In this document: piece by piece, positions 3,911 to 63,031 of the stretch
How positions within the stretch are numbered: position 1 is the first letter of the stretch
Layout of the letters: each line of letters starts with the position of its first letter
Virus record (IMG/VR): IMGVR_UViG_3300030041_000009
Span: 186,001 to 250,000 of that record
Direction: 5' to 3' (one strand)
Length of the DNA stretch: 64,000 nucleotides
From: a virus
Translations under genes and position numbers: made by a program
The notes under the pieces: model-generated
Databases searched by the model: none
Seen by the model: only the letters and a program-made list of their open reading frames with translations
Told to the model about the DNA's origin: nothing

Positions 3911-5356
3911 ATGAATGAAAATGAAATAAGTGAAATAATAAGTGAAATAATAAATGAAAGTAATAATTTTGATTCAAATGATATTGAATTAATAAAAAAA
4001 CAAGGAGTTGTATTTACAAAAAGTATAGTATGTGAACAAATAATTGAATATTTAGAGCCAAAAATAACAGATATTATTTGTGAACCAAGTGTTGGTAAAG
4101 GTTCTTTTGTGTTTAGTCTTTTAGAATATTTTAGAAAACAAAATGTCGAATTAAATGATATGATATTTTTTGTTGAAAATAGATTATATTGTTATGATAT
4201 CGATATTAATTTTATAAATATTTTAAAAGAATTATTAAATAGATATTTTAATGTATTAGGATATAATAATCAATTATTATTAGTAAATATACAAAATAGT
4301 GATTTTTTATTTGTTGACATGAAATTTGATATCATATTTGGAAATCCTCCATATGTAAGAATTCAAAATTTAGAAAATGATTATGTTAATAAATTAAAAG
4401 AATTAAATTTTGAAACTATTAAAAAAGGAAATATAGATTTATATTATGCATTTATTGAAAAATCATTAAAAATTAGTAAGAAAGTAGGATTTATTATACC
4501 TAATTCATTTTTAATAAATAAAACAGGAGAAATATTAAGAGAAATTATAAATAATAGATTATTAAAAATATATGATAATAAAAATAATAAAATTTGGGAT
4601 AATATTTCAGCTTATACATGTATAATAATTTGTAATGATATAATTAATGATACTTTTGAATATGAAACAGAATCAGTTTCACAGATATTAAGTAAGAAAA
4701 ATTGTAATTGGTTTAAACAAGAGACATCAAATAATTTAAAAAATATAATTAAATATGCAAATGGCGGAATAGCAACACTTAGAGATAAAATTTACAAATT
4801 TGATTATTCTGATGATAATTATGTTTATAAAAATGATTCTAATATTAAAATAGAAAAAAATATTTGTAAAAAGGCATATAAATCAACTACTAAAAAAGAT
4901 TATTGGTTCATATATCCTTATATTAATAATAAAATTATAACTAAAGATATTTTAATTGAAGATTTTCCGTTAGCATATAAATATCTATTAGATAATAAAT
5001 ATGAATTAAATAAAAGAGATAATGGTAATATTACTAAATTATCTAAATATGATGCATGGTACGGATACGGTAGAAAACAAGGCTTATTAAAAGAACTGAA
5101 TGAAAATGAGATTCAGATAATATTACCTATTACATTTATAAAGGGCAAAATTCATTATAAAATAATGAAATCTCCTACGTTAATATTATCTGGATTATCT
5201 GTTGTTATGGATAAAAAAAATGTTGACTCATTTATTGAAATTATAGAAAGTGAAGATTTTCATAATTATTTAGAAAAAAATAATAAAGTATTATTTGATA
5301 CTGATAAAGAAAAAATATGGTTGACATTAACTACAACATCATTGATAAATTATTAA
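3911..5356 (+). CDS. N6-adenine DNA methyltransferase (gamma type, Eco57I/TaqI-like)
   Basis: 481 residues. S-adenosylmethionine-binding motif I is CEPSVGKGSF (residues 57-66), preceded by GVVFTKSIV, the motif X-like start typical of class gamma enzymes. Catalytic motif IV is NPPY (145-148). The C-terminal half is probably the target-recognition domain (YGYGRKQGL, GLSVVMD). It should methylate adenine N6 at a specific site. No endonuclease domain or partner gene is adjacent, so it looks like an orphan methylase, as phages use to mask their DNA; a restriction role is not excluded. Confidence 0.9.
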   Translation: MNENEISEIISEIINESNNFDSNDIELIKKQGVVFTKSIVCEQIIEYLEPKITDIICEPSVGKGSFVFSLLEYFRKQNVELNDMIFFVENRLYCYDIDINFINILKELLNRYFNVLGYNNQLLLVNIQNSDFLFVDMKFDIIFGNPPYVRIQNLENDYVNKLKELNFETIKKGNIDLYYAFIEKSLKISKKVGFIIPNSFLINKTGEILREIINNRLLKIYDNKNNKIWDNISAYTCIIICNDIINDTFEYETESVSQILSKKNCNWFKQETSNNLKNIIKYANGGIATLRDKIYKFDYSDDNYVYKNDSNIKIEKNICKKAYKSTTKKDYWFIYPYINNKIITKDILIEDFPLAYKYLLDNKYELNKRDNGNITKLSKYDAWYGYGRKQGLLKELNENEIQIILPITFIKGKIHYKIMKSPTLILSGLSVVMDKKNVDSFIEIIESEDFHNYLEKNNKVLFDTDKEKIWLTLTTTSLINY

Positions 5357-13298: not shown

Positions 13299-13618
13299 AA
13301 TATTTAAAAACATTTGAAAGATTAAATAGAGATATAAAAAAAGGAGATTATGCTATAATTAACTTTGAACCTAGAAACCAAGGGATATCAGTTTTTTTTA
13401 AAAATAATATTTGTAAAATTATTGATATAAGAGGAACCAATCCTATTTGGATTAAGTTTGGATATGAATATGTACCAGATGAACTAATTGAATGTTTTGA
13501 TAAAAAAGGAAAATATTATGTTTATCATATAGAGTTAAATTCAAGTGATGTTGAAAAATATGCTAGAACTAAAGAAGAATTAGAATTAGAATTACAAGCA
13601 AATAAATTTAACTTATGA
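13295..13618 (+). CDS. array 2 cassette, GDY barrel family
   Basis: 107 residues; MKYLKTFE head, KKGDYAIINFE, CKIIDIRG, YVPDELIECF, ELELELQA and NKFNL tail. Core is homologous to the cassettes at 1044 and 33670, so the same core type occurs in three separate arrays. Confidence 0.8.
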   Translation: MKYLKTFERLNRDIKKGDYAIINFEPRNQGISVFFKNNICKIIDIRGTNPIWIKFGYEYVPDELIECFDKKGKYYVYHIELNSSDVEKYARTKEELELELQANKFNL

Positions 13619-14187
13619 AATATATAAAACAATTTGAATTAACAAAATTTTATGATGAAAAAGATATATTTAAATATATTTATGAAATTGATTCACCTAA
13701 AATTAAAGAATTGATATCTAAAATCCCAAATATAAATCTTAATATTAAAAATAGTAATGGAGATACTCCTTTAATAATCACTATAAGGTATGGGTTATAT
13801 CAAATATTTAAAATTTTAATTGATTCAGGAGCTGATGTTAATACTACTGATAATTTTGGAAATACTCCATTGATATTAGTAGTACGAAATAAAAAAGAAG
13901 AAATGATTCAAGATTTAATAACAGCAGGAGCAGATATAAATAAAATAAATAATAATAGTGAAACTGCATTAATTGTGAATTCTAATTATAATTATAGAGA
14001 TAAAAAAGCATTAAAAATAACTAAGTTTTTAATTGAAAATGGAGCAGATTGGAATATAACTGATGATATTGACCATACATTTATAGATTATTTACCTCCT
14101 GCATATAGAAAAGAAATTATAGAAGAATATCCAGAAGAATATTCAAATTATTTAATGGTTAAAAATACAAATAAATTTAATATATGA
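13615..14187 (+). CDS. ankyrin-repeat cassette
   Basis: 190 residues. Three to four ankyrin repeats (GDTPLIITIRYG, ILIDSGADVNTTDNFGNTPL, LITAGADINK, LIENGADWN) follow MKYIKQFE; the end is FIDYLPPAYRKEII..YPEEYSNYL and NKFNI. Ankyrin repeats bind proteins; the target is unknown. Confidence 0.85.
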   Translation: MKYIKQFELTKFYDEKDIFKYIYEIDSPKIKELISKIPNINLNIKNSNGDTPLIITIRYGLYQIFKILIDSGADVNTTDNFGNTPLILVVRNKKEEMIQDLITAGADINKINNNSETALIVNSNYNYRDKKALKITKFLIENGADWNITDDIDHTFIDYLPPAYRKEIIEEYPEEYSNYLMVKNTNKFNI

Positions 14188-14633
14188 AATATATAAAAAC
14201 ATTTGAACATATAATGGATAATGTATTGACATTAAATGATAAAGGATTATTTATAATATCAAATATTCCAGATACAACAACAGAATTATATTGCTATAAT
14301 AATAATTTAAAAGAATTGCCAACATTACCAGAGACATTAGAGATATTATCTTGTTTTAATAATGTTTTGCGTGAGTTACCTACTTTACCGCACTCAATAA
14401 AAAAAATATTTTGCTATTCTAATAATTTAAAAGAATTGCCGACATTACCATATTCATTAAAGACATTAAATTGTAGTAATAATAATTTATCTGAGTTACC
14501 ATTATTACCAGAGACATTAGAAATATTAGTATGTGAAGGTAATAACCTACCTTATAACAATTTAGATGAATATAACAAATGGTTAGAGATAAATCATCCT
14601 GATATATTTAATGCTAAAAAATTTAATATATAG
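14184..14633 (+). CDS. LPX-type leucine-rich-repeat cassette
   Basis: 149 residues. About four repeats of roughly 21 residues of the form LPxLPxxLxxLxCxxNxLxE (ELPTLPETLEILSC, ELPTLPHSIKKIFC, ELPTLPYSLKTLNC, ELPLLPETLEILVC) between MKYIKTFE and KKFNI. The pattern recalls bacterial LPX leucine-rich repeats, which mediate protein binding. Ends with TAG directly followed by TAA. Confidence 0.85.
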   Translation: MKYIKTFEHIMDNVLTLNDKGLFIISNIPDTTTELYCYNNNLKELPTLPETLEILSCFNNVLRELPTLPHSIKKIFCYSNNLKELPTLPYSLKTLNCSNNNLSELPLLPETLEILVCEGNNLPYNNLDEYNKWLEINHPDIFNAKKFNI

Positions 14634-14637
14634 TAAT

Positions 14638-14949
14638 ATGAAAATACTAAAATTTAATGAGCATCAATTTACAATGTTAGATGATGATGTTATATTAGCA
14701 GGTAGATCTAAATATCCAGTAGGCACTAAAATCAAATTTAAAGAGGATGATGAGTATTTAACTGGTACTCTTACTCATCCATTTGGTTCCTGTAATGGTG
14801 ATGTTGGAGTGTATCTAGATCAAAAAGGAAAGTACGTGGATGATAGATTATGTTTAAAAAACAGAGAATATATAGTTATTGACGACGAAGTTGAAGAATT
14901 TATGAAAGATTATAAATTAAAACAAGATGCAAACAAATTCAATTTATAA
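14638..14949 (+). CDS. array 2 last cassette, variant head MKILKFNE
   Basis: 103 residues from ATG 14638 (MKILKFNEHQF), chosen over 14611 because the conserved head begins there. The centre is YPVGTKIKFKEDDEY followed by GTLTHPFG, a barrel-like pattern; tail ANKFNL, TAA. The head MKxxKFNE resembles the MKVKKFKELNE of 27995. Confidence 0.7.
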   Translation: MKILKFNEHQFTMLDDDVILAGRSKYPVGTKIKFKEDDEYLTGTLTHPFGSCNGDVGVYLDQKGKYVDDRLCLKNREYIVIDDEVEEFMKDYKLKQDANKFNL

Positions 14950-14993
14950 GTGAAATAACTTATAAAGTGTATTTATAAGTGAAATAGCTTATA
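14944..14993 (+). repeat. two tandem 22-base hairpin repeats
   Basis: TTATAAGTGAAATAACTTATAA and a second copy with one change each form stems TTATAAG/CTTATAA around a GAAATA loop, placed between array 2 and the terminator at 15001. Confidence 0.7.
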
Positions 14994-15000
14994 AATAAAA

Positions 15001-15036
15001 AATCCTATCTAATTTTTCAATTAGATAGGATTTTTA
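15001..15036. terminator. strong bidirectional terminator
   Basis: Stem ATCCTATCTAATT/AATTAGATAGGAT with T-runs on both sides; closes array 2 on the plus strand and the RNA island on the minus strand. Confidence 0.85.
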
Positions 15037-15039
15037 TTT

Positions 15040-15990
15040 TATATTGCTTGAGAATACAGCATTATAGAGAAGAACTTTAGAAACTATTATTTTTTCTGCT
15101 TCTTTTCCACCAATCTTTTGAATTGGTACTCCTCCAATGACGGTCAATTAGATTCACCACTCCTTTTGTTGTTAATTACTCTCTTAATAATCATTACTCA
15201 TCTAGAATGCCTTCCAGATTAAATCTTGCGGATTTAGAGAACTTTCTTAAAAATCATGTTGGACTTGGGGTCTTTCACGGCTACGACGAATTGCTTCTCA
15301 TAACTAGTAGTCACCTATCACTAACAACAGTCGAACTCTTTTCCTTTATTTGTTTATTTTAATTTGCATTAAATTTGCAGTTAAAGTTTGTTTTGTGGAT
15401 GATGAAAGTAGTGGTTCGACAACCAGCTTCTCAATCTTTTGAACTGAGCTATACTAAACTACTCTCTGAGATATCCCTACCTCCATATTTTAAGTCAACT
15501 AAGATACTCTCGTAACACTTGGTAATGTTAAGGTAACCTTAATTACAGCACCACCTGTACATTGTATTACAATCTAATTTACCTTTCGGTTTTAAGTCAA
15601 CTTTTATATTGGATAACGCAATTACACAACTGGAAATCGTATTTCTTGCAATAATCCTTCAGGTTATTCTTATTGATGTTCCCATCTCACTCAGACTACC
15701 CACATAGCCTTTGCATTAAACCACTTTCTCTACAGTGTTACCCTCGATAATCAAGGTTTAATGATATCCTGATTGTCTGCTCAAGTATTATTGTTTACAA
15801 TTAATTTTATTTCCGAAAAAATAAAATCAACTGCACATTTAATACCGCAAGTTATAGAAACAACTATAACTCACTTTATACTACTTTCGTAGTTTATTTA
15901 TGACTACAGACAGCCAAATATTTTCAATTTTACAAAGAACGCTTTAAAAAAACAACAGAATTAATATAGAAGAATTTTAAATAAGACTTA
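15040..15990 (-). ncRNA. large structured non-coding RNA candidate
   Basis: No open frame over 60 codons; G+C visibly higher than in the genes. Read on the minus strand it contains many consistent stems: ACTAC-GAAA-GTAGT (15880-15893, a GNRA hairpin), GTTATAG/CTATAAC (15851-15870), a three-way junction closed by AAACC/GGTTT around CCTTGA/TCGAGG and CACT/AGTG, TAAATC-CGCAA-GATTTA, and ACCAAT-TCAAAAG-ATTGGT. It ends at the terminator at 15001. Size and setting recall the large ornate phage RNAs (GOLLD, ROOL class), but I cannot assign a family by eye. Exact ends are uncertain. Confidence 0.6.
15407..15463 (-). ncRNA. closed multi-hairpin element within the large RNA
   Basis: AGTAGT/ACTACT closes a CTCA/TGAG hairpin with loop GTTCAAAAGAT and a GGTT-GTCG-AACC hairpin. 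It looks tRNA-like at first sight, but the T-loop lacks the TTC-A pattern, so it is treated as a domain of the surrounding RNA. Confidence 0.5.
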
Positions 15991-16138
15991 ACAAAAGCGA
16001 TAGAAAGACATTAACTTTCTGCTCATTATTGATCCACTTTCCTGGAATTTCAACCTACATAATTTTATATTAATTCATGTTGTTTTAAAAGTTCAAGTAC
16101 TTTTACTTGAAAATGTCACAAATCTATTTCAGTCCTTT

Positions 16139-16152
16139 GTTCTTCACAGAAC
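16139..16152 (-). other. GNRA hairpin (GUUCU-GUGA-AGAAC)
   Basis: Five-pair stem with a GUGA tetraloop on the minus strand, followed by AAAGGACUGA. Other copies at 16890-16901 (loop GAGA), 17223-17236 (loop GAAA) and 17942-17953 (loop GUGA) have different stem sequences, so pairing rather than sequence is kept. Confidence 0.6.
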
Positions 16153-16257
16153 TTTATCATTGGAACAATAAACATTTGGTTATGTTCATTATATCTACTC
16201 TTGTAATATAAATCCTTGAATTTTTATTACTTTTGCAATATTTACTTTTGTAATATT

Positions 16258-16301
16258 AATCTCTCCTTTTGCAAGCTTCAAGGTGGCTATTGCCTTTGAT
16301 T
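16258..16301 (-). ncRNA. cloverleaf-like repeat, short variant (copy 0)
   Basis: AATC/GATT closes GGC-AATA-GCC and the conserved CCTT/AAGG hairpin with loop GAAGCTTGCAA. The third arm of the full repeat is missing. The first arm is GGC/GCC instead of TGG/CCA: both sides changed together. Confidence 0.6.
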
Positions 16302-16330
16302 ATTTTTATTACTTTTTCAATTTCATTAAT

Positions 16331-16396
16331 ATCTAAGTGTGTTTAATTGCACTATCTCCTTTTGCAAGCTTCAAGGTGGTTTCTATCCCATTAGAT
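16331..16396 (-). ncRNA. cloverleaf-like repeat (copy 1)
   Basis: Closing stem ATCTAA/TTAGAT; arms TGG-GATAGAAA-CCA, CCTT-GAAGCTTGCAA-AAGG and GTG-CAATTAAA-CAC. About 66 bases. No T-loop or anticodon loop consensus, so not a normal tRNA. Confidence 0.7.
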
Positions 16397-16423
16397 TTTT
16401 TAGTTACTTATACAATATTTAAT

Positions 16424-16489
16424 ATCTAAGTGTGTTTAATTGCACTATCTCCTTTTGCAAGCTTCAAGGTGGTTTCTATCCCATTAGAT
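16424..16489 (-). ncRNA. cloverleaf-like repeat (copy 2)
   Basis: Essentially identical to copy 1 over the whole structured part; the flanks between the two copies differ. Confidence 0.7.
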
Positions 16490-16516
16490 TTTAATTGTTT
16501 CAGCAAGATACTTAAT

Positions 16517-16583
16517 ATATAAGTTGTGTTCATTTGCACTATCTCCTTTTGCAAGCTTCAAGGTGGTTTTTGTACCATTATAT
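16517..16583 (-). ncRNA. cloverleaf-like repeat (copy 3)
   Basis: Closing stem ATATAA/TTATAT: relative to copy 1 the C-G pair became A-T on both strands. First arm TGG-TACAAAAA-CCA; the other arms keep their stems. Confidence 0.7.
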
Positions 16584-16629
16584 TTTTATTGCTTCAATCT
16601 GAAATTTGATTTGTTTCATTATTGTAGTC

Positions 16630-16661
16630 CAAATTTACAAAAAGTTTTTTGTTTTACCAAA
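16630..16661 (-). promoter_or_regulatory. island promoter repeat 1 (TTTG-N20-TAAATTTG)
   Basis: -33 TTTG at 16658-16661 and -7 TAAATTTG at 16630-16637 on the minus strand; the 20-base spacer GTAAAACAAAAAACTTTTTG is the conserved repeat shared by most copies. Confidence 0.75.
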
Positions 16662-16776
16662 TATTTTTGAATTTTTATACTTTTTTAAATTAATAATAAT
16701 CTTACTAATCATAAATTGAAGTATCACATGGAAGCAATAAACTAGTTTCAATTAGATGATTATTATTTATTAAGTA

Positions 16777-16808
16777 CAAAATTACAAAAAGTTTTTTGTT
16801 TTACCAAA
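16777..16808 (-). promoter_or_regulatory. island promoter repeat 2 (TAATTTTG)
   Basis: Same 20-base spacer and TTTG as repeat 1, -7 box TAATTTTG at 16777-16784. Confidence 0.75.
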
Positions 16809-16889
16809 TATTTTTGAATTTTTTCTACATTTTTTTCAAGTACTCTTACTTGAAATGAGTATTAAAAAAAATCTTTTATCAGTTCTTTT

Positions 16890-16901
16890 AGCTTCTCAGC
16901 T
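16890..16901 (-). other. GNRA hairpin (AGCU-GAGA-AGCU)
   Basis: Minus-strand hairpin followed by AAAAGAACUGAUA, the same downstream motif as at 16139. Confidence 0.5.
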
Positions 16902-16973
16902 TAGAAAAAATAAATTTTCATTTATCATATTTATTCTTGTAATTTAATAATCTTACGATTATTATCATTATCA

Positions 16974-17041
16974 ATCTAAGAGTGTTTAATTGCACTATCT
17001 TTCCTTTTGCAAGCTTCAAGGTGGTTTTTATCCCATTAGAT
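16974..17041 (-). ncRNA. cloverleaf-like repeat (copy 4)
   Basis: ATCTAA/TTAGAT closing stem, TGG/CCA, CCTT/AAGG and GTG/CAC arms; an AA insertion between arms two and three and a C-to-T change at the base of arm three. Confidence 0.65.
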
Positions 17042-17084
17042 TATCTATTAAATCTGAATTATGATTTTCTTTTTTATTGTAGTT

Positions 17085-17116
17085 CAAATTTACAAAAAGT
17101 TTTTTGTTTTACCAAA
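17085..17116 (-). promoter_or_regulatory. island promoter repeat 3 (TAAATTTG)
   Basis: -33 TTTG 17113-17116, -7 TAAATTTG 17085-17092, conserved spacer. Confidence 0.75.
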
Positions 17117-17372
17117 TATTTTAATGTTAAAGTTTGAACTATTTTTCAAGTACTCCTACTTGTTTTTATCCAAGGAATTTTGATTAAATAATGTTATTAA
17201 ATCATATTATTTAAATTAACAGCTCTTTTTCAAGAGATTTCAATTAATTAATATACATTTTTTAATATTTATTATTTAACCAAAACTCGCTTGTTGTTGG
17301 TTATGAATATCAATAGTGGAACTTACTTTCAGAACAAGTTCTGATTTTCAGTGTTGAAATCAATATTCATAG

Positions 17373-17464
17373 TGAAGATAGAAGGAATTGAACCTTGTGT
17401 CATTGACACTTGCCCCTTCAAATTAGATTATTCTAATAATGATGCACCCTGTGTGCTTATCTCC
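17373..17464 (-). ncRNA. tRNA-like element with class II variable arm
   Basis: Acceptor stem GGAGATA/TATCTTC, a GCAC/GTGC D-like arm containing GG, a long variable arm GTGTC-AAT-GACAC, and a T-arm AAGG-TTCAATT-CCTT with proper T-loop. The anticodon region (ATTAG/CTAAT plus AAGGGG) does not give a 5-pair stem with a 7-base U33 loop, so decoding is doubtful. Candidate tRNA-like RNA or decayed tRNA-Ser/Leu. Confidence 0.55.
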
Positions 17465-17829
17465 AACATTTTATAATTTAATCAATAATCAGTCCTTGTA
17501 GTGGAATGAAAGTAGTTAGTCACGTCTCATCTAACATTAGGATTTTATCATATTCGAAATTTAATTCCAATATTCAATCTCCACGGTGTGGTTGCTTTGT
17601 ATATTTATAACAAGATAAGTTCTACATGTCTTATATATCTGTTTCAATGGACTGTCTATCTTTGATAATATTGATTATTTAAGATTATAATCTTATCATT
17701 GACTCACCACTATGAGCTTCTCATTCATCTGGTTGATATATATTTTCTTATAAATATATACACTCAGAGCGCAAATCTCGCTGATATTTCTTGTTTAAAT
17801 CTGATTTTTTGATTTAAATTATTATAGAA

Positions 17830-17861
17830 TAAATTTACAAAAAGTTTTTTGTTTTACCAAA
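17830..17861 (-). promoter_or_regulatory. island promoter repeat 4 (degenerate -7)
   Basis: Spacer and TTTG are conserved but the -7 box reads TAAATTTA; the final G is lost, so this copy may be weak. Confidence 0.6.
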
Positions 17862-18076
17862 TATTTTTGAAAGTATTTTCTATTTTTTCTCAAGTACGTT
17901 TACAAGAGTAAATAAAAATCAAATCATTTTCAGTCCTTTTTATCTTCACAGATTAGAAACAGTAAGTTTGAACTTACTATATTTACTTTTGTAATATTAA
18001 ATTTATTTTCAAGTTTCACTATAAACTTTTTCAAGATTAAAGTTTGTTTCCTTACTACTAAATTATTATTACATTA

Positions 18077-18144
18077 ATCTAAGTGTGTTCATTTGCACTA
18101 TCTATACTCTCGCAAGCTTTGAGTTGGTTTTTGTACCATTAGAT
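18077..18144 (-). ncRNA. cloverleaf-like repeat (copy 5, strongest covariation)
   Basis: ATCTAA/TTAGAT closing stem; the middle arm is ACTC/GAGT instead of CCTT/AAGG, with the AAGCTTGC loop core unchanged. Replacement of a whole stem with pairing kept argues for selection on RNA structure. Lies just downstream of promoter repeat 5. Confidence 0.75.
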
Positions 18145-18184
18145 TTTTTTCAATCTGAAGTTTGATTTGTTTTTTATTGTAGTT

Positions 18185-18216
18185 CAAAGTTACAAAAAGT
18201 TTTTTGTTTTACCAAA
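18185..18216 (-). promoter_or_regulatory. island promoter repeat 5 (TAACTTTG)
   Basis: -7 TAACTTTG 18185-18192, -33 TTTG 18213-18216, 20-base conserved spacer. Confidence 0.75.
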
Positions 18217-18294
18217 TATTTTAATGTTAAAGTTTGAACTTTTTTCAATTGAAATTTAATTTTTTAAAACTATATTTCTTTTTGAATTGTAGTT

Positions 18295-18326
18295 CAAAGT
18301 TACAAAAAGTTTTTTGTTTTACCAAA
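18295..18326 (-). promoter_or_regulatory. island promoter repeat 6 (TAACTTTG)
   Basis: 110 bases from repeat 5; identical box and spacer. Confidence 0.75.
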
Positions 18327-18403
18327 TATTTTTGAAAGTTTTTTCTACTTTTTTTCAATTAAAATATAATTTTTATAATTACTTTTCTTTTGATGTTGTA
18401 GTT

Positions 18404-18435
18404 CAAAATTACAAAAAGTTTTTTGTTTTACCAAA
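18404..18435 (-). promoter_or_regulatory. island promoter repeat 7 (TAATTTTG)
   Basis: 109 bases from repeat 6; -33 TTTG 18432-18435. A CAAGTA-AGAG-TACTTG hairpin (18468-18483) lies between repeats 7 and 8. Confidence 0.75.
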
Positions 18436-18501
18436 TATTTAATGTTAAAGTTTTGAACTTTTTTTCTCAAGTACTCTTACTTGATATTTTTTGTTGTAGA
18501 A

Positions 18502-18533
18502 TAAAATTACAAAAAGTTTTTTGTTTTACCAAA
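18502..18533 (-). promoter_or_regulatory. island promoter repeat 8 (degenerate -7)
   Basis: Conserved spacer and TTTG; -7 reads TAATTTTA. 98 bases from repeat 7. Confidence 0.6.
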
Positions 18534-18608
18534 TATTTAATGATAAAGTTTTGAAGTTTTTTTTTTTCAATACTATTACTTAAAAATTTTTGTTTTTTTA
18601 TTGTAGAA

Positions 18609-18640
18609 TAAAATTATAAAAATGTTTTCATTTCACCAAA
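18609..18640 (-). promoter_or_regulatory. island promoter repeat 9 (degenerate)
   Basis: TTTG 18637-18640, -7 TAATTTTA, spacer diverged but still 20 bases. Confidence 0.55.
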
Positions 18641-18689
18641 TATTTAATGTTAAAGTTTTGAAATTTTTTTCAAGTCCTCTTATTAAATT

Positions 18690-18734
18690 ATCAAATCAAC
18701 TAAGATATTTATTATTTTTCTTAGTTGATTTGAT
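18690..18734. repeat. 15-bp perfect inverted repeat
   Basis: ATCAAATCAACTAAG and its exact complement flank a 15-base A+T loop, directly downstream (minus strand) of promoter repeat 10. No T-run follows on the minus strand, so it is a stable transcript hairpin or a binding site rather than an obvious terminator. Confidence 0.7.
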
Positions 18735-18767
18735 TGTAAATAATTACATTTGTTTTTGTTTGTGATG

Positions 18768-18798
18768 CAAAATTACTAAAAGTTTTCATATCACCAAA
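18768..18798 (-). promoter_or_regulatory. island promoter repeat 10 (TAATTTTG)
   Basis: -33 TTTG 18795-18798, -7 TAATTTTG 18768-18775, 19-base spacer partly diverged. Entry point of the island on the minus strand. Confidence 0.65.
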
Positions 18799-18850
18799 TA
18801 TTTTAGTGTTAAATTTTAAAATATTTTTTAAATATTTATATATCAATAAA

Positions 18851-19180
18851 TTAATATTCTATATCGTAATAAAAACATAAATCTTTCATTGAGAAAAATA
18901 CTAATGTATCATTATTAGTTGCAAAATCAACTTCTTTATCTGCTCCGCTTGATTCTCCTGGTAATCTTAATATACAATCACAACTTTTTATCCATTCTAA
19001 ATCTAATTTCAACCAATCTTCATATGGTCTGGGATGATGCATATGTTGAAAATGGAAATATAATGGAACGAATGGCGCAAATCCTTTATTTATTAATTCA
19101 TCTGCCATATCAATTTGAGTTTTGACATTAACTGCAGGATCTCCTTTTGTATAAGGAGATGCAATATAAACTTTAATCAT
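18851..19180 (-). CDS. nucleoside 2-deoxyribosyltransferase-like (DUF4406/DUF1937) protein
   Basis: 109 residues. VYIASPYTKGDP at the start, KSCDCILRLPGESSGADKEVDFA near the end: this is the layout of small flavodoxin-fold deoxyribosyltransferase-like phage proteins (ASPY...LPGwxxSxGAxxE). Residues of the acidic catalytic type are present (E in GADKEVD). Related enzymes exchange bases on deoxynucleosides or hydrolyse nucleotides; the substrate here is unknown. Confidence 0.75.
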   Translation of the reverse strand: MIKVYIASPYTKGDPAVNVKTQIDMADELINKGFAPFVPLYFHFQHMHHPRPYEDWLKLDLEWIKSCDCILRLPGESSGADKEVDFATNNDTLVFFSMKDLCFYYDIEY

Positions 19181-19196
19181 ATTATTTATTTTATTT

Positions 19197-19370
19197 TTAT
19201 ACTAAAAATTCTAATGCAAGAAAAGCTAACACAAGAAGAATAACGCCAATTGTCATAATTATATTATTAGTTCTTTGAGTTTTACATGTACAATTTTTAT
19301 TTTTATGCCCACAAACTTCACATATCATATCGTCATTAATATCTTCTAACCATTTTTTATCGTCCTGCAT
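19197..19370 (-). CDS. small tail-anchored membrane protein with Cys cluster
   Basis: 57 residues: acidic start (MQDDKKWLEDINDD), CEVCGHKNKNCTC (possible zinc site), then a single transmembrane helix (TIGVILLVLAFLALEFLV) at the C-terminus. Immediately upstream of the deoxyribosyltransferase-like gene on the same strand. Confidence 0.6.
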   Translation of the reverse strand: MQDDKKWLEDINDDMICEVCGHKNKNCTCKTQRTNNIIMTIGVILLVLAFLALEFLV

Positions 19371-19403
19371 ATTTGATTTTTATTTTTTAATATATATGGT
19401 ATT

Positions 19404-22495: not shown

Positions 22496-24145
22496 ATGTT
22501 AAACTATAATGATTATAATAAACTAAATGAAGCTTTTTTTCATCGTAGTAAAGATGAATTGGAAAACCTTATTCATTCTTTTAAAAGCTTAATTATAAAT
22601 TTGAAGCAATCTATTGATAAAAAATACACATTAGATTTCTATAAAACTCAAATTAAAGAAGATTTAGAATCATATAAAACATATTTATTAAATAATTATA
22701 ATAAAAATACTATGGGTAAATTTAAAGATTTATTTAAAGATTTTTTAAATAATGTAGATGATGATATAATTAAACAGATGAGATTAGGTAAATTTGCTAA
22801 TGATATTCTAAAAATATATTCTATAACAAATTCATTTGATATTAATATAAAGAATGCAGATAGTGTTTTCAAAGCATATCTTGATAATGTTGATAGATAT
22901 ATAGATAACACTTATGAATTTTTCTACAATAAAATTGAAACTGATAAGTCATATGAACCATATAATAAAATAGATATTAAAATAAATAAAGTACCTTTTG
23001 ATGATTATCAAAAAACAAAATATAAATATCAAATAGAATTATTGAAATTACAAGAGTGGATTGTATATAATAATAAAAAAGTGTTAATTATATTTGAAGG
23101 TAGAGATGCAGCAGGAAAAGGATCTGCAATTAGAAATATAACAAGATTTCTTGATCCTAAGCATTTTAAAGTTCAAACTTTTGGTATTCCTTCAGAAGAA
23201 GAAAGTGATAATTGGTTTGAAAGATATGAAAAAGTGTTACCTAAAAACGGTGAAATTGTGTTCTTTGATAGATCTTGGTATACAAGAGGTTATGTAGAAC
23301 CTGTAATGGGATATTCAAATGAAGATAAATATAATAAATTCATGAAAGAAGTCAATAATTTTGAAGATAAATTAATTGATGATGATATAATACTTATAAA
23401 AATATGGTTTTCTATATCTCAGGATGTACAAAAAATGAGGTTTGAATTAAGAAAATCTAACCCATTAAAATATTGGAAATTTAGTAAGAATGATGAACAA
23501 ACTTTAGATAAATGGGACGAATTTACTAAATATATAAATGAAATTTTCAAAAAAACAAATACTAAAAATGCTCCTTGGATAATAATAGATGCAGATGATG
23601 AAAATTATTCCAGATTAGAATCATTTAATGGTATAATAAAAACTATTGAAAAAGATAAAGAAAAAGAAAAAGATGGAGGAATAAAAGTAATATTTGAAGA
23701 TATTGATGGACCACTTATTCCTTATAATAAAAATTCTGATGTAAATTATCATAAATTTTTTAATGAGCCTGATAAATGGAGTAAAACTGCCATGAGTAAT
23801 TTAAACACAATAATTGAAAAAACAGATGCTAAAGTTGTTTTATCTTCATCATATAGAGATGATAAACCTAAAAGTAAAATAGAAGATATGATGAAAAAAG
23901 CAGGTTTTAAATATAAAATATATGACTGTGTTCCAAATGACAAATCTAAAAAAAGAGGTGCCGATATAAAAGATTGGTTGAAAAATAATAAAATAGTTAG
24001 TAATTTTATAATTATAGATGATAATAAGCATGATTTATATGATGTATTTAATAAAAAACATATTGTTAAAACCACTCATGAATTAGGTATAACAGATGAT
24101 ATTATGAATGAAGCAATTGAAAAGTTAAATAATAATAATAAATAA
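22496..24145 (+). CDS. ppk2: polyphosphate kinase 2 (PPK2) fused to a HAD phosphatase
   Basis: 549 residues in three parts. Residues 1-165: helical region of unknown function starting MLNYNDYNKLNEAFF, which resembles capsid-targeting heads. Residues 166-385: PPK2 domain with Walker A EGRDAAGKGS (201-210), lid-type arginines, Walker B-like FFDRSWYTRGYVEP (256-269) and RKSNPLKYWKFS. PPK2 enzymes transfer phosphate between polyphosphate and nucleotides. Residues 396-545: HAD domain with FEDIDGPL (400-407, nucleophile Asp402), LSSSYR, KRGADIKDWL and FIIIDDN. The fusion could couple nucleotide phosphorylation with dephosphorylation. I know of no standard PPK2-HAD architecture. Confidence 0.85.
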   Translation: MLNYNDYNKLNEAFFHRSKDELENLIHSFKSLIINLKQSIDKKYTLDFYKTQIKEDLESYKTYLLNNYNKNTMGKFKDLFKDFLNNVDDDIIKQMRLGKFANDILKIYSITNSFDINIKNADSVFKAYLDNVDRYIDNTYEFFYNKIETDKSYEPYNKIDIKINKVPFDDYQKTKYKYQIELLKLQEWIVYNNKKVLIIFEGRDAAGKGSAIRNITRFLDPKHFKVQTFGIPSEEESDNWFERYEKVLPKNGEIVFFDRSWYTRGYVEPVMGYSNEDKYNKFMKEVNNFEDKLIDDDIILIKIWFSISQDVQKMRFELRKSNPLKYWKFSKNDEQTLDKWDEFTKYINEIFKKTNTKNAPWIIIDADDENYSRLESFNGIIKTIEKDKEKEKDGGIKVIFEDIDGPLIPYNKNSDVNYHKFFNEPDKWSKTAMSNLNTIIEKTDAKVVLSSSYRDDKPKSKIEDMMKKAGFKYKIYDCVPNDKSKKRGADIKDWLKNNKIVSNFIIIDDNKHDLYDVFNKKHIVKTTHELGITDDIMNEAIEKLNNNNK

Positions 24146-30378: not shown

Positions 30379-31317
30379 TTAGAAGAAATTAGCAGCATCA
30401 ATATATTTGAATCCACATCTTTTAGCAAATGTTTTATCACTTGTTAAATCTCCAACCATTATGCATTGAGATGGATCAAGTTTATATTTTTCAATAAATT
30501 CTATTCCTAGTCCAACTCCTGGTTTTCTACAATAGCAAGTTATTGGAGGAACTGAATGCCCACAATATTTATAATCAATATTAACTCCTAGCATTTCATT
30601 TGTTTTTTCAAAACAAGCTATTGCTGTATCATTAGATAATAATCCTTTTGCTATTCCACTTTGATTTGAAACTCCAAGTAATATATAACCTTGACTTTGT
30701 AATTCTAAAAGTTTTTCTGTTCTACCTGGAATTATTTCAATATCACTAATATCAGTTGGATAATGTTCACCACTTTTAGTTAATCTCAATGTACCATCAT
30801 AATCAAATAAAATTGCTTTATTTTTATATTCTGATGAATAACGTTTAAAATCTATTTTTTCTATATCATCAATACCTTCTGATAATTCAGGTGCTTCAAA
30901 ATTTTTATTAATTTTATAAAGTGCAGCAACAGGAAACATATGTGGATCATTAGAGTTAGAATATTCACTTAATTCTGTGAATAATTTACCATATTTTCTT
31001 ATCATTCTTGTTACCTGATTGAACATACAATCTTCAATTTTTGTAGTAAAATGAATACATAATATATAATAATTATATTTTTTTGCTAATTCAATAACAT
31101 CAGCCCTAGATAATTTAGTTGAATATGTTCCATCTAATACAATATCCACGCCATCTAACATTAATTGTTCAAGTTTTTTATTAAGAGAACTTAATGTATC
31201 TCCTTCAATATCTCTTGATAGTAATGTACATTTATAATCAACATATTTTTCAATGATGCTTGATTTACCTGCTGCTGGTAATCCACAAGATATGACTAAT
31301 TTTTTATCTTTTTTCAT
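30379..31317 (-). CDS. pnkp: polynucleotide 5'-kinase/3'-phosphatase (Pnkp)
   Basis: 312 residues, close to T4 Pnkp (301), in the same order: kinase first. Walker A GLPAAGKS (12-19), SRD at 34-36 and a lid region with RMIRKYG. HAD phosphatase from about 167 with DYDGTLR (172-178), SNQSG, and a zinc-type CGHSVPP..CYCRKP loop, then GDLTSDKTFA. The zinc loop is like HisB/GmhB-type HADs rather than T4 PseT. It should heal RNA or DNA ends: remove 3' phosphates and add 5' phosphates before ligation. Partner ligase probably the gene at 54818-55840. Confidence 0.9.
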   Translation of the reverse strand: MKKDKKLVISCGLPAAGKSSIIEKYVDYKCTLLSRDIEGDTLSSLNKKLEQLMLDGVDIVLDGTYSTKLSRADVIELAKKYNYYILCIHFTTKIEDCMFNQVTRMIRKYGKLFTELSEYSNSNDPHMFPVAALYKINKNFEAPELSEGIDDIEKIDFKRYSSEYKNKAILFDYDGTLRLTKSGEHYPTDISDIEIIPGRTEKLLELQSQGYILLGVSNQSGIAKGLLSNDTAIACFEKTNEMLGVNIDYKYCGHSVPPITCYCRKPGVGLGIEFIEKYKLDPSQCIMVGDLTSDKTFAKRCGFKYIDAANFF

Positions 31318-54817: not shown

Positions 54818-55840
54818 TCAATTAATTAAATATTCATTGTTAATGACCTTAAAACTTATTGATGAATCAATTGATTTAAATACACTTCCCTCCCTTTTTG
54901 ATGAATTTGTTAATACAGATTTGCCTTCAACATGTTTTAATATTTCATCAATAGTGCCAGGTAATTTATAATAACTACAAATTAAAGGAACCGTGTCAGC
55001 ATTTAATACATTAGTTACAATATCAACGAATGTATTATAATCTTCCAATTTATATTCATCTATATTAAAAACTCTAAAATATTTTATTGTTTTATGGCTT
55101 AATTTATAGTTATTGCCTTCTATTCCTGAACCAATTAATTCACCTTGAACAGCAATATTTTTACCATATATTCTTAATTTCTCTTCAATATTATTTTCAA
55201 TTGCAAATTTCCAAAATAAATTATTTGGATTTCTTTTAAATTCCCAGTTTCTACCACACACGCCAAATACTCCATTATGTAAATACATAGTGGTAGATTG
55301 ACCATCAAGTTTCTCTGTTTCATAGAATATTACATTATCTTTTTTCCATTCATCGAAATCATCAGATAAATTTTGTGCGCGTTCTTCATTTGTCTTCAAT
55401 ATGAATGAAGGAATAGGACCAACAACATCAGCTTTAAGTTCATCAGGTATTGGAACTTCAAATTTTACAACATTTAGATAATCAGATACATCATCACCTT
55501 CTGTCAATTTAAATATATGACAAGGTGTATCATTTAAAATATCTAATGACATTATTAGTCCACATGAAAATTGTTTGCGTAATTTGACCGTTCTCAAGAG
55601 GAAACCTTCTTGTTCATCAGTTTTTCTATATGAACTATTTCTAAGAAATTCAAATTCTTCTCTAATAGGTAATAGTGAATCAATTTCAAAATAAACAACT
55701 TTGTCACCTACTTTAAATTCGTCTTTTTTAACTACTACTTTCCAACCTTTTATGCGTGCAACCTCTATTCTATCTGCTCCTTTAATTGGTAATATGTCTT
55801 TAATTACCTGAATTGTTGCTAATTTTCTATCTATATTCAT
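54818..55840 (-). CDS. RNA ligase (Rnl5/DraRnl, TIGR02306-like)
   Basis: 340 residues. The N-terminal about 130 residues are an OB-like domain (IKGADRIEVARIKGWKVVV) as in Deinococcus-type ligases. Motif I is EKLDG (Lys177 is the AMP attachment site), then GVCGRNWEF, motif IIIa/IV QGELIG and EGSVFK, motif V SFKVIN. It should seal 3'-OH/5'-phosphate ends, including nicked duplexes. Together with Pnkp it makes a complete RNA-repair pair. Confidence 0.9.
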   Translation of the reverse strand: MNIDRKLATIQVIKDILPIKGADRIEVARIKGWKVVVKKDEFKVGDKVVYFEIDSLLPIREEFEFLRNSSYRKTDEQEGFLLRTVKLRKQFSCGLIMSLDILNDTPCHIFKLTEGDDVSDYLNVVKFEVPIPDELKADVVGPIPSFILKTNEERAQNLSDDFDEWKKDNVIFYETEKLDGQSTTMYLHNGVFGVCGRNWEFKRNPNNLFWKFAIENNIEEKLRIYGKNIAVQGELIGSGIEGNNYKLSHKTIKYFRVFNIDEYKLEDYNTFVDIVTNVLNADTVPLICSYYKLPGTIDEILKHVEGKSVLTNSSKREGSVFKSIDSSISFKVINNEYLIN

Positions 55841-62927: not shown

Positions 62928-62960
62928 AAAAATAAATATACCTTATGAAAAATATATTTG

Positions 62961-63031
62961 TGCTCACTATCGGATTCAAACCGATGTAGGTAGTTTTAGA
63001 GGCTACCGCCCTATCACTGGACTAAATGAGC
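62961..63031 (-). tRNA. tRNA with anticodon CTA (candidate amber suppressor)
   Basis: 71 bases. Acceptor GCTCATT/AGTGAGC, D-arm GTCC-AGTGATA-GGGC, anticodon arm GTAGC-CTCTAAA-ACTAC (last pair C-A), variable CTAC, T-arm ATCGG-TTTGAAT-CCGAT, discriminator A, no encoded CCA. The 7-base loop has U33 and anticodon 5'-CTA-3', which reads TAG. If the loop is drawn with 9 bases the anticodon is less clear. It lies 23 bases from a gene with an in-frame TAG on the same strand. Confidence 0.75.

Follow-up and report, generated by a model that had tools for sequence, protein, structure and literature searches.

Introduction

The cages formed by GOLLD RNA (Rfam RF02032) are among the largest natural ones known to consist of RNA only. 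The multimeric cage has been resolved by cryo-EM, in the published molecule a 5′ domain of ~420 nt lies ahead of a 3′ domain, and GOLLD genes are often found near tRNA islands (PMC12286853). The Bacteroidota sigma-ABfr promoter, which is relevant to the locus described here, has the consensus −7 box TAnnTTTG and −33 box TTTG, with about 20 bases between them (PMC7366714). Promoters of this kind are known in tandem ahead of stable RNAs: in Bacteroides 16S leaders, TTTGG promoters stand in tandem, two or three to a leader and with A tracts ahead of them, and GTTCTTTGA lies downstream of the promoters. We take GTTCTTTGA to be boxA, judging from boxA sequences as generally known and from its place in the 16S leaders.

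Here we analyze a stretch of 64,000 nucleotides (the window; positions 186,001 to 250,000 of IMG/VR virus record IMGVR_UViG_3300030041_000009), in which a first-pass annotation had reported ten near-identical promoters in a gene-free stretch of 2.2 kb. The locus may bear on the control of GOLLD expression and on the function of this RNA.

Results

All ten promoters reported by the first-pass annotation are present where it had placed them, and all lie on the minus strand (Table 1). They share the left-facing pattern TTTG-N19/20-TAnnTTTG/A, and each has an A-rich tract upstream. Measured against the sigma-ABfr consensus (PMC7366714), seven of the ten match exactly and three end in A, the −7 box reading TAAnTTTG in the former and TAAnTTTA in the latter (17830, 18502, and 18609). 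The earlier description of this array as the Bacteroidota consensus is supported. The 20-base spacer GTAAAACAAAAAACTTTTTG is exact in 8/10 promoters; that of P9 keeps the length of 20 bases but has diverged in sequence (GTGAAATGAAAACATTTTTA), and that of P10 is both diverged and 19 bases long. The spacer includes the near-palindrome CAAAAA-nn-TTTTTG. The outer promoters P6 to P9 are spaced only ~100 bp apart. Within 15045-18850, the strict pattern TTTG-N20-TAnnTTTG/A occurs nine times on the minus strand, compared with a mean of 0.07 and a maximum of 2 in 500 dinucleotide shuffles, and the plus strand of this block has no promoter of the array type. When up to two mismatches were allowed, the relaxed pattern was found at 10 places in the whole 256,033-base record, namely, nine promoters of the array (P10 is unable to match owing to its 19-base spacer) and one other site.

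No open reading frame of ≥60 amino acids is present in 14950-18850, and a coding function of the block was rejected on this ground. The gene-free block is, however, ~3.9 kb long (14950-18850) rather than 2.2 kb, and it has GOLLD inside. This RNA, missed by the first-pass annotation, lies downstream of all ten promoters and on their strand. The match covers the complete Rfam model (1-416/416) with 278.9 bits, the gathering cut-off being 150 bits; it was the sole match in an Rfam scan of 14600-19400, which returned no rRNA, and a genome-wide search found a single GOLLD copy. The 416 positions of the model probably correspond to the conserved 3′ domain. Conserved sequence upstream of the match extends to about 15880 and probably represents the 5′ domain, given the published domain sizes (PMC12286853); within it, 15644-15768 is 74.8% identical over 125 bases to the GOLLD locus of LR745206.1.

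Table 1. Features of the RNA cluster (window positions; all on the minus strand)
Feature	Position	Strand	Remarks
P10	18768..18798	-	promoter; 19-base spacer, diverged
P9	18609..18640	-	promoter; spacer GTGAAATGAAAACATTTTTA; first 16 bases as in LR745206 pre-GOLLD promoter
P8	18502..18533	-	promoter; exact spacer; −7 box ends TTTA
Unit-end hairpin CAAGTA/TACTTG	18468..18483	-	no U tract
P7	18404..18435	-	promoter
P6	18295..18326	-	promoter; extra unit, not in lineages B, C
P5	18185..18216	-	promoter; cloverleaf-bearing unit follows
Cloverleaf	18074..18148	-	model R1, 90.2 bits
Cloverleaf, weak, degenerate	18003..18067	-	28.8 bits
Unit-end hairpin, weaker	17891..17906	-	end of P5 unit
P4	17830..17861	-	promoter; ~690-nt RNA follows
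Candidate ~690-nt structured RNA	17136..17822	-	after P4; conserved in A, B, C
tRNA-like domain in ~690-nt RNA	17373..17465	-	four arms, 8-bp acceptor-like helix
Unit-end hairpin	17147..17162	-	~690-nt RNA unit
P3	17085..17116	-	promoter; cloverleaf-bearing unit follows
Cloverleaf	16971..17045	-	88.4 bits
Unit-end hairpin	16837..16852	-	P3 unit
P2	16777..16808	-	promoter; not in lineages B, C
P1	16630..16661	-	promoter; nearest of ten to GOLLD
Cloverleaf tandem copy 1	16512..16587	-	upstream of GOLLD; 99.7 bits
Cloverleaf tandem copy 2	16419..16493	-	102.5 bits
Cloverleaf tandem copy 3	16326..16400	-	102.9 bits
Cloverleaf copy 4, diverged	16235..16305	-	30.8 bits
Hairpin	16094..16109	-	after tandem cloverleaf copies
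boxA-like GTTCTTTGTAAAATTG	15925..15940	-	only GTTCTTTGNNANATTG match in 256-kb record
GOLLD 5′ domain (probable)	15467..15880 (upper limit approximate)	-	conserved sequence; domain sizes PMC12286853
GOLLD RNA RF02032	15045..15466	-	Rfam, 278.9 bits
Intrinsic terminator	14998..15035	-	17-bp stem + U tract, directly after GOLLD

A minus-strand scan of 14900-19200 revealed a single terminator-like site, 14998-15035, and no intrinsic terminator between the promoters. Because this sole terminator lies directly after GOLLD, read-through is the default reading. The very short RNAs of about 60 bases that the first-pass annotation had expected in the absence of read-through are thus not supported, and the long inter-promoter units are structured and conserved. 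Several units close with the hairpin CAAGTA/TACTTG, which lacks a U tract and is closely followed by the next promoter's A-rich tract. By eye, two further hairpins are apparent: a long, near-perfect one in the P10 unit (ATCAAATCAACTAAGA / TCTTAGTTGATTTGAT, 18686-18737), and one long hairpin occupying the P2 unit (16670-16776, minus strand), which is found in lineage A only (below) and has no B/C counterpart.

The suspicion that structured RNAs lie downstream of the promoters was well founded, as these include not only GOLLD but also covarying cloverleafs and a candidate RNA of ~690 nt. The cloverleaf element is a 74-nt repeat with five clear and two weak copies in the window. RNAalifold applied to 16 copies gave a four-helix cloverleaf of 16 pairs, with 96.5% of cells paired as opposed to only 27-54% in partner-slide controls. 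Two-sided base changes occur in five pairs, and 0/500 shuffles were as high as the observed values, a result that is not a probability since copies within one locus are kin. The G-U pairs are consistent with a minus-strand RNA; for this reason, and for want of array-type promoters on the plus strand, a plus-strand function was rejected. The loop AAGCUUGC is invariant in 16/16 copies, and the AAGCUU palindrome within it could form loop-loop contacts. No Rfam family matches the element, and it was not found in this genome outside the cluster. In the cluster, there were neither ARAGORN tRNA calls nor Rfam tRNA matches, so that neither resource recognizes the cloverleafs as tRNAs. Beyond the three lineages described below, no convincing copy was found, the more distant GOLLD loci included; a weak match in L026 (E 0.047) was taken as chance.

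The stretch after P4 is a candidate for a structured RNA of ~690 nt. Predicted folding of 17180-17830 is more stable than that of shuffles (z −3.8), and identity among the three lineages is 78-81%. In the consensus, which is built from three sequences only, 133 pairs were counted, with 97% paired and 10 showing two-sided changes, a number attained in 1/500 shuffles. This RNA matched no Rfam family, and a wider search for relatives returned the same three lineages only; that it might be a second GOLLD copy was rejected, the genome search having returned one GOLLD only. It contains a tRNA-like domain with an acceptor-like helix of 8 bp (TGRAGATA/TATCTTCA) and a T-loop-like sequence, GGTTCAANTCC (GGTTCAA). 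A true tRNA was rejected, as ARAGORN gave nothing but forced hits, under its most permissive setting, and Rfam gave none.

The first-pass annotation had proposed a search for the spacer repeat in related phages, and exact-pattern scans of IMG/VR uncovered the array in three phage lineages: A, the window type, for which several near-identical contigs were counted as one phage; B (L002 and L011); and C (L014, L009, and L012). Lineage A has 10 promoters, B has 7, and C has 6, with P6 and P2 present in A only. In a three-way alignment, the order of units is common to A, B, and C, and the promoter spacers are unchanged while other parts have diverged. Orthologous promoters keep both boxes and the spacer across lineages, and the spacer is identical in nearly all B and C copies, too. 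The outermost promoter of lineage B seems, from the alignment, to serve a protein-coding stretch.

Scanning for the GOLLD 5′ motif yielded ~18 further phage contigs, and Rfam confirms GOLLD in L026, L038, L044, L045, and L050. Tandem promoters, near-identical or similar, precede GOLLD in LR745206.1 (three), L038 (three), L044 (two), L045/L048/L052 (three), and L050 (two). Those of L044 resemble the window promoters (TTTGGTGAAAACAAAAACTTTTTTTATTTTTG). Distant GOLLD phages have other spacers, with only a central A tract in common. In the available sequence upstream of GOLLD, none or one strict promoter is present in L037/L039, L040/L041/L051/L053, L042, L043, and L046/L054. Of the independent GOLLD lineages retrieved by the motif scan, about half have fewer than two strict-consensus promoters; in some of these, the contig ends first or tRNA arrays occupy the upstream side. 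The view that such an array is no known phage feature thus stands in part: no description was found in the literature searched, but two or three near-identical promoters before GOLLD recur in Bacteroidota-type phages.

In LR745206.1 and L038, tRNAs or tRNA-shaped RNAs lie between the promoters. The GOLLD cluster of L038, with its tandem promoters, contains four tRNA-shaped RNAs (reverse complement 230-331, 503-619, 788-877, and 908-1005) that are nearly alike in acceptor and T arm; hairpins are inserted in their D loops, and their anticodon arms are unusual. LR745206.1 has an identical 96-nt tRNA-shaped RNA flanking GOLLD on both sides (L026 5553-5648 and 6748-6843). Two phage contigs encode a tmRNA within ~1.2 kb of GOLLD and on the same strand (L046 6934-7315, plus; L050 1277-1681, minus).

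A second shared element is GTTCTTTGA, which at 8/9 or better precedes the GOLLD 5′ motif by 148-292 nt in 19/19 GOLLD contigs examined, near-duplicates included. It resembles the boxA of antitermination. The exact string GTTCTTTGAAATATTG of LR745206.1 recurs 86-187 nt before 16S rRNA in Bacteroidota genomes, often at contig ends. The boxA-like sequence of the window, spotted only after its relatives had been inspected, agrees with this 16-base string at 14/16 positions; most other GOLLD loci agree at 12/16, and L037/L039 read ATCTTTGA. A literature search on boxA in Bacteroidota gave nothing specific, and no mention of boxA together with GOLLD was found in the literature searched.

As for the surroundings, genes for ankyrin-repeat and leucine-rich-repeat proteins adjoin the RNA cluster (13615-14633, plus), and an Eco57I-type DNA methylase is encoded at 3911-5356 (plus). 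The window also has a set of RNA-repair-type genes (22496-24145, plus; 30379-31317, minus; 54818-55840, minus), comprising a fusion of PPK2 with a HAD domain whose name refers to RNA repair proteins, a kinase/3′-phosphatase (PNK3P), and an RNA ligase; a Pnk/ligase pair would be in keeping with the mending of cleaved tRNAs. ARAGORN also placed a tRNA at 62960-63031 (minus), which has the anticodon CUA, goes under the name tRNA-Pyl, and is possibly an amber suppressor.

Discussion

In our view, the array likely provides the promoters for a stable-RNA operon of the phage under rRNA-operon-style control, of which it would be an extreme form. According to this model, ten sigma-ABfr-type promoters in tandem on the minus strand would feed one operon. 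The inner promoters would serve the cloverleaf-bearing units and the ~690-nt RNA, whereas the outer ones, which precede almost no RNA content, would supply extra RNA polymerase. As there is no terminator between the promoters, transcripts are expected to read through to GOLLD and to end at the terminator behind it. Just before GOLLD, the boxA-like element probably brings in the Nus antitermination complex of the host, in the manner of the host's own rRNA operons, and we propose that the long untranslated RNA is therefore completed. The outcome would be GOLLD and its companion RNAs in large amounts, freed by processing. At the sequence level, this model draws on the promoters and their direction, GOLLD, the placement of the terminator, the covariation of the cloverleafs, the conservation in three lineages, and the occurrence elsewhere of tandem promoters with a GTTCTTTGA-like element; from these we infer promoter firing, read-through, antitermination, processing, and high output. 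Several observations count against it. With P6 to P9 ~100 bp apart, tandem firing could interfere; the boxA match of the window is 14/16 and was spotted after its relatives; about half of the GOLLD lineages scanned have fewer than two strict promoters; and the block encodes no rRNA. Moreover, the 20-base spacer is kept unchanged beyond the demands of the sigma consensus. Because of this excess constancy, the spacer may possibly be maintained by gene conversion or be bound by an additional protein.

The latter leads to the alternative of a phage-specific regulon, in which a phage or host regulator binds the near-palindrome of the spacer and the array is switched on (or off) as a unit at one infection stage. 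Sigma recognition does not require the spacer, which is the same in eight window copies and in nearly all B/C copies, and its sequence is confined to this cluster. However, distant GOLLD phages have other spacers with only a central A tract in common, and copies in a tandem array would also be held identical by gene conversion. A regulon of this kind seems rather unlikely to us as the explanation of the array; a possible spacer-bound regulator is compatible with the stable-RNA operon. The recurring hairpin, which closes several units just ahead of the next promoter, and the modular build of the units would also suit independent small-RNA genes, each promoter making one discrete short RNA that ends at CAAGTA/TACTTG. 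These hairpins lack a U tract, though, no terminator-like site lies between the promoters, and the P6 to P9 units amount to little more than a leader and a weak hairpin. Short discrete sRNAs were rejected for want of terminators between promoters, and we hold small-RNA genes of this type to be improbable. About as doubtful is an evolutionary by-product, that is, a promoter-hairpin cassette duplicated in tandem with most outer copies functionless: copy number differs among lineages, P9 and P10 have diverged, and P6 and P2 are restricted to lineage A, but from one lineage to the next, the orthologous copies show no change in either box or in the spacer. Finally, titration of the sigma factor, with the promoters as a DNA decoy draining host RNA polymerase, would fit the many copies that look strong and have kept their spacers, as well as the short outer units nearly without RNA content, yet it is highly improbable and unnecessary to explain the array. 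The promoters are directed toward GOLLD and structured RNAs, this layout is used in related phages for tRNAs, the number of copies varies among lineages (10, 7, and 6), and ten sites are few compared with the host genome.

Returning to the stable-RNA operon, we would tentatively extend it, with more reservation than conviction, to the GOLLD of Bacteroidota phages in general, which might be located in an operon that copies host rRNA control through tandem rrn-like promoters and boxA antitermination and co-expresses cloverleaf or tRNA-like partners or cargo, here a new cloverleaf class and a new ~690-nt RNA. GOLLD itself and tandem promoters of stable RNAs are already known; in the literature searched, we found no description of an array of ten, of the cloverleaf element, of the ~690-nt RNA, or of an rRNA-operon-like leader ahead of GOLLD. 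If the GOLLD operon uses rRNA-type promoters and boxA, the host factors NusB and S10 become testable requirements, GOLLD timing should track rRNA transcription, and the co-transcribed cloverleaf RNAs are named candidates for GOLLD partners. Moreover, those who read phage genomes and meet a "gene-free" promoter stack should seek large structured RNAs there.

Among known systems, the Bacteroidota rRNA operon leader shares with the window the tandem TTTGG-N20-TAnnTTTG promoters with A tracts upstream, followed by GTTCTTTGA before a large stable RNA. The window likewise has tandem promoters ahead of a large stable RNA and a boxA-like sequence in between, but it encodes GOLLD and other noncoding RNAs and no rRNA, has ten promoters instead of two or three, and matches boxA at 14/16 positions. 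By analogy, then, the block would work like an rrn leader without being one. The uncultured phage LR745206.1 (634,780 bp) has three near-identical promoters in the same direction ahead of GOLLD, one unit that is a short RNA-poor stretch, and a promoter whose first 16 bases (TTTGGTGAAATGAAAA) are common with P9 of the window; in contrast, its units are tRNAs or tRNA-shaped RNAs with no R1 cloverleaf match, and its spacer is another. Compared with GOLLD (RF02032) as described, the window offers a complete Rfam match on a phage, with the adjoining cloverleaf and tRNA-like elements recalling the published tRNA islands, and differs by what lies upstream, namely, ten promoters along with two structured RNAs that appear not to have been described.
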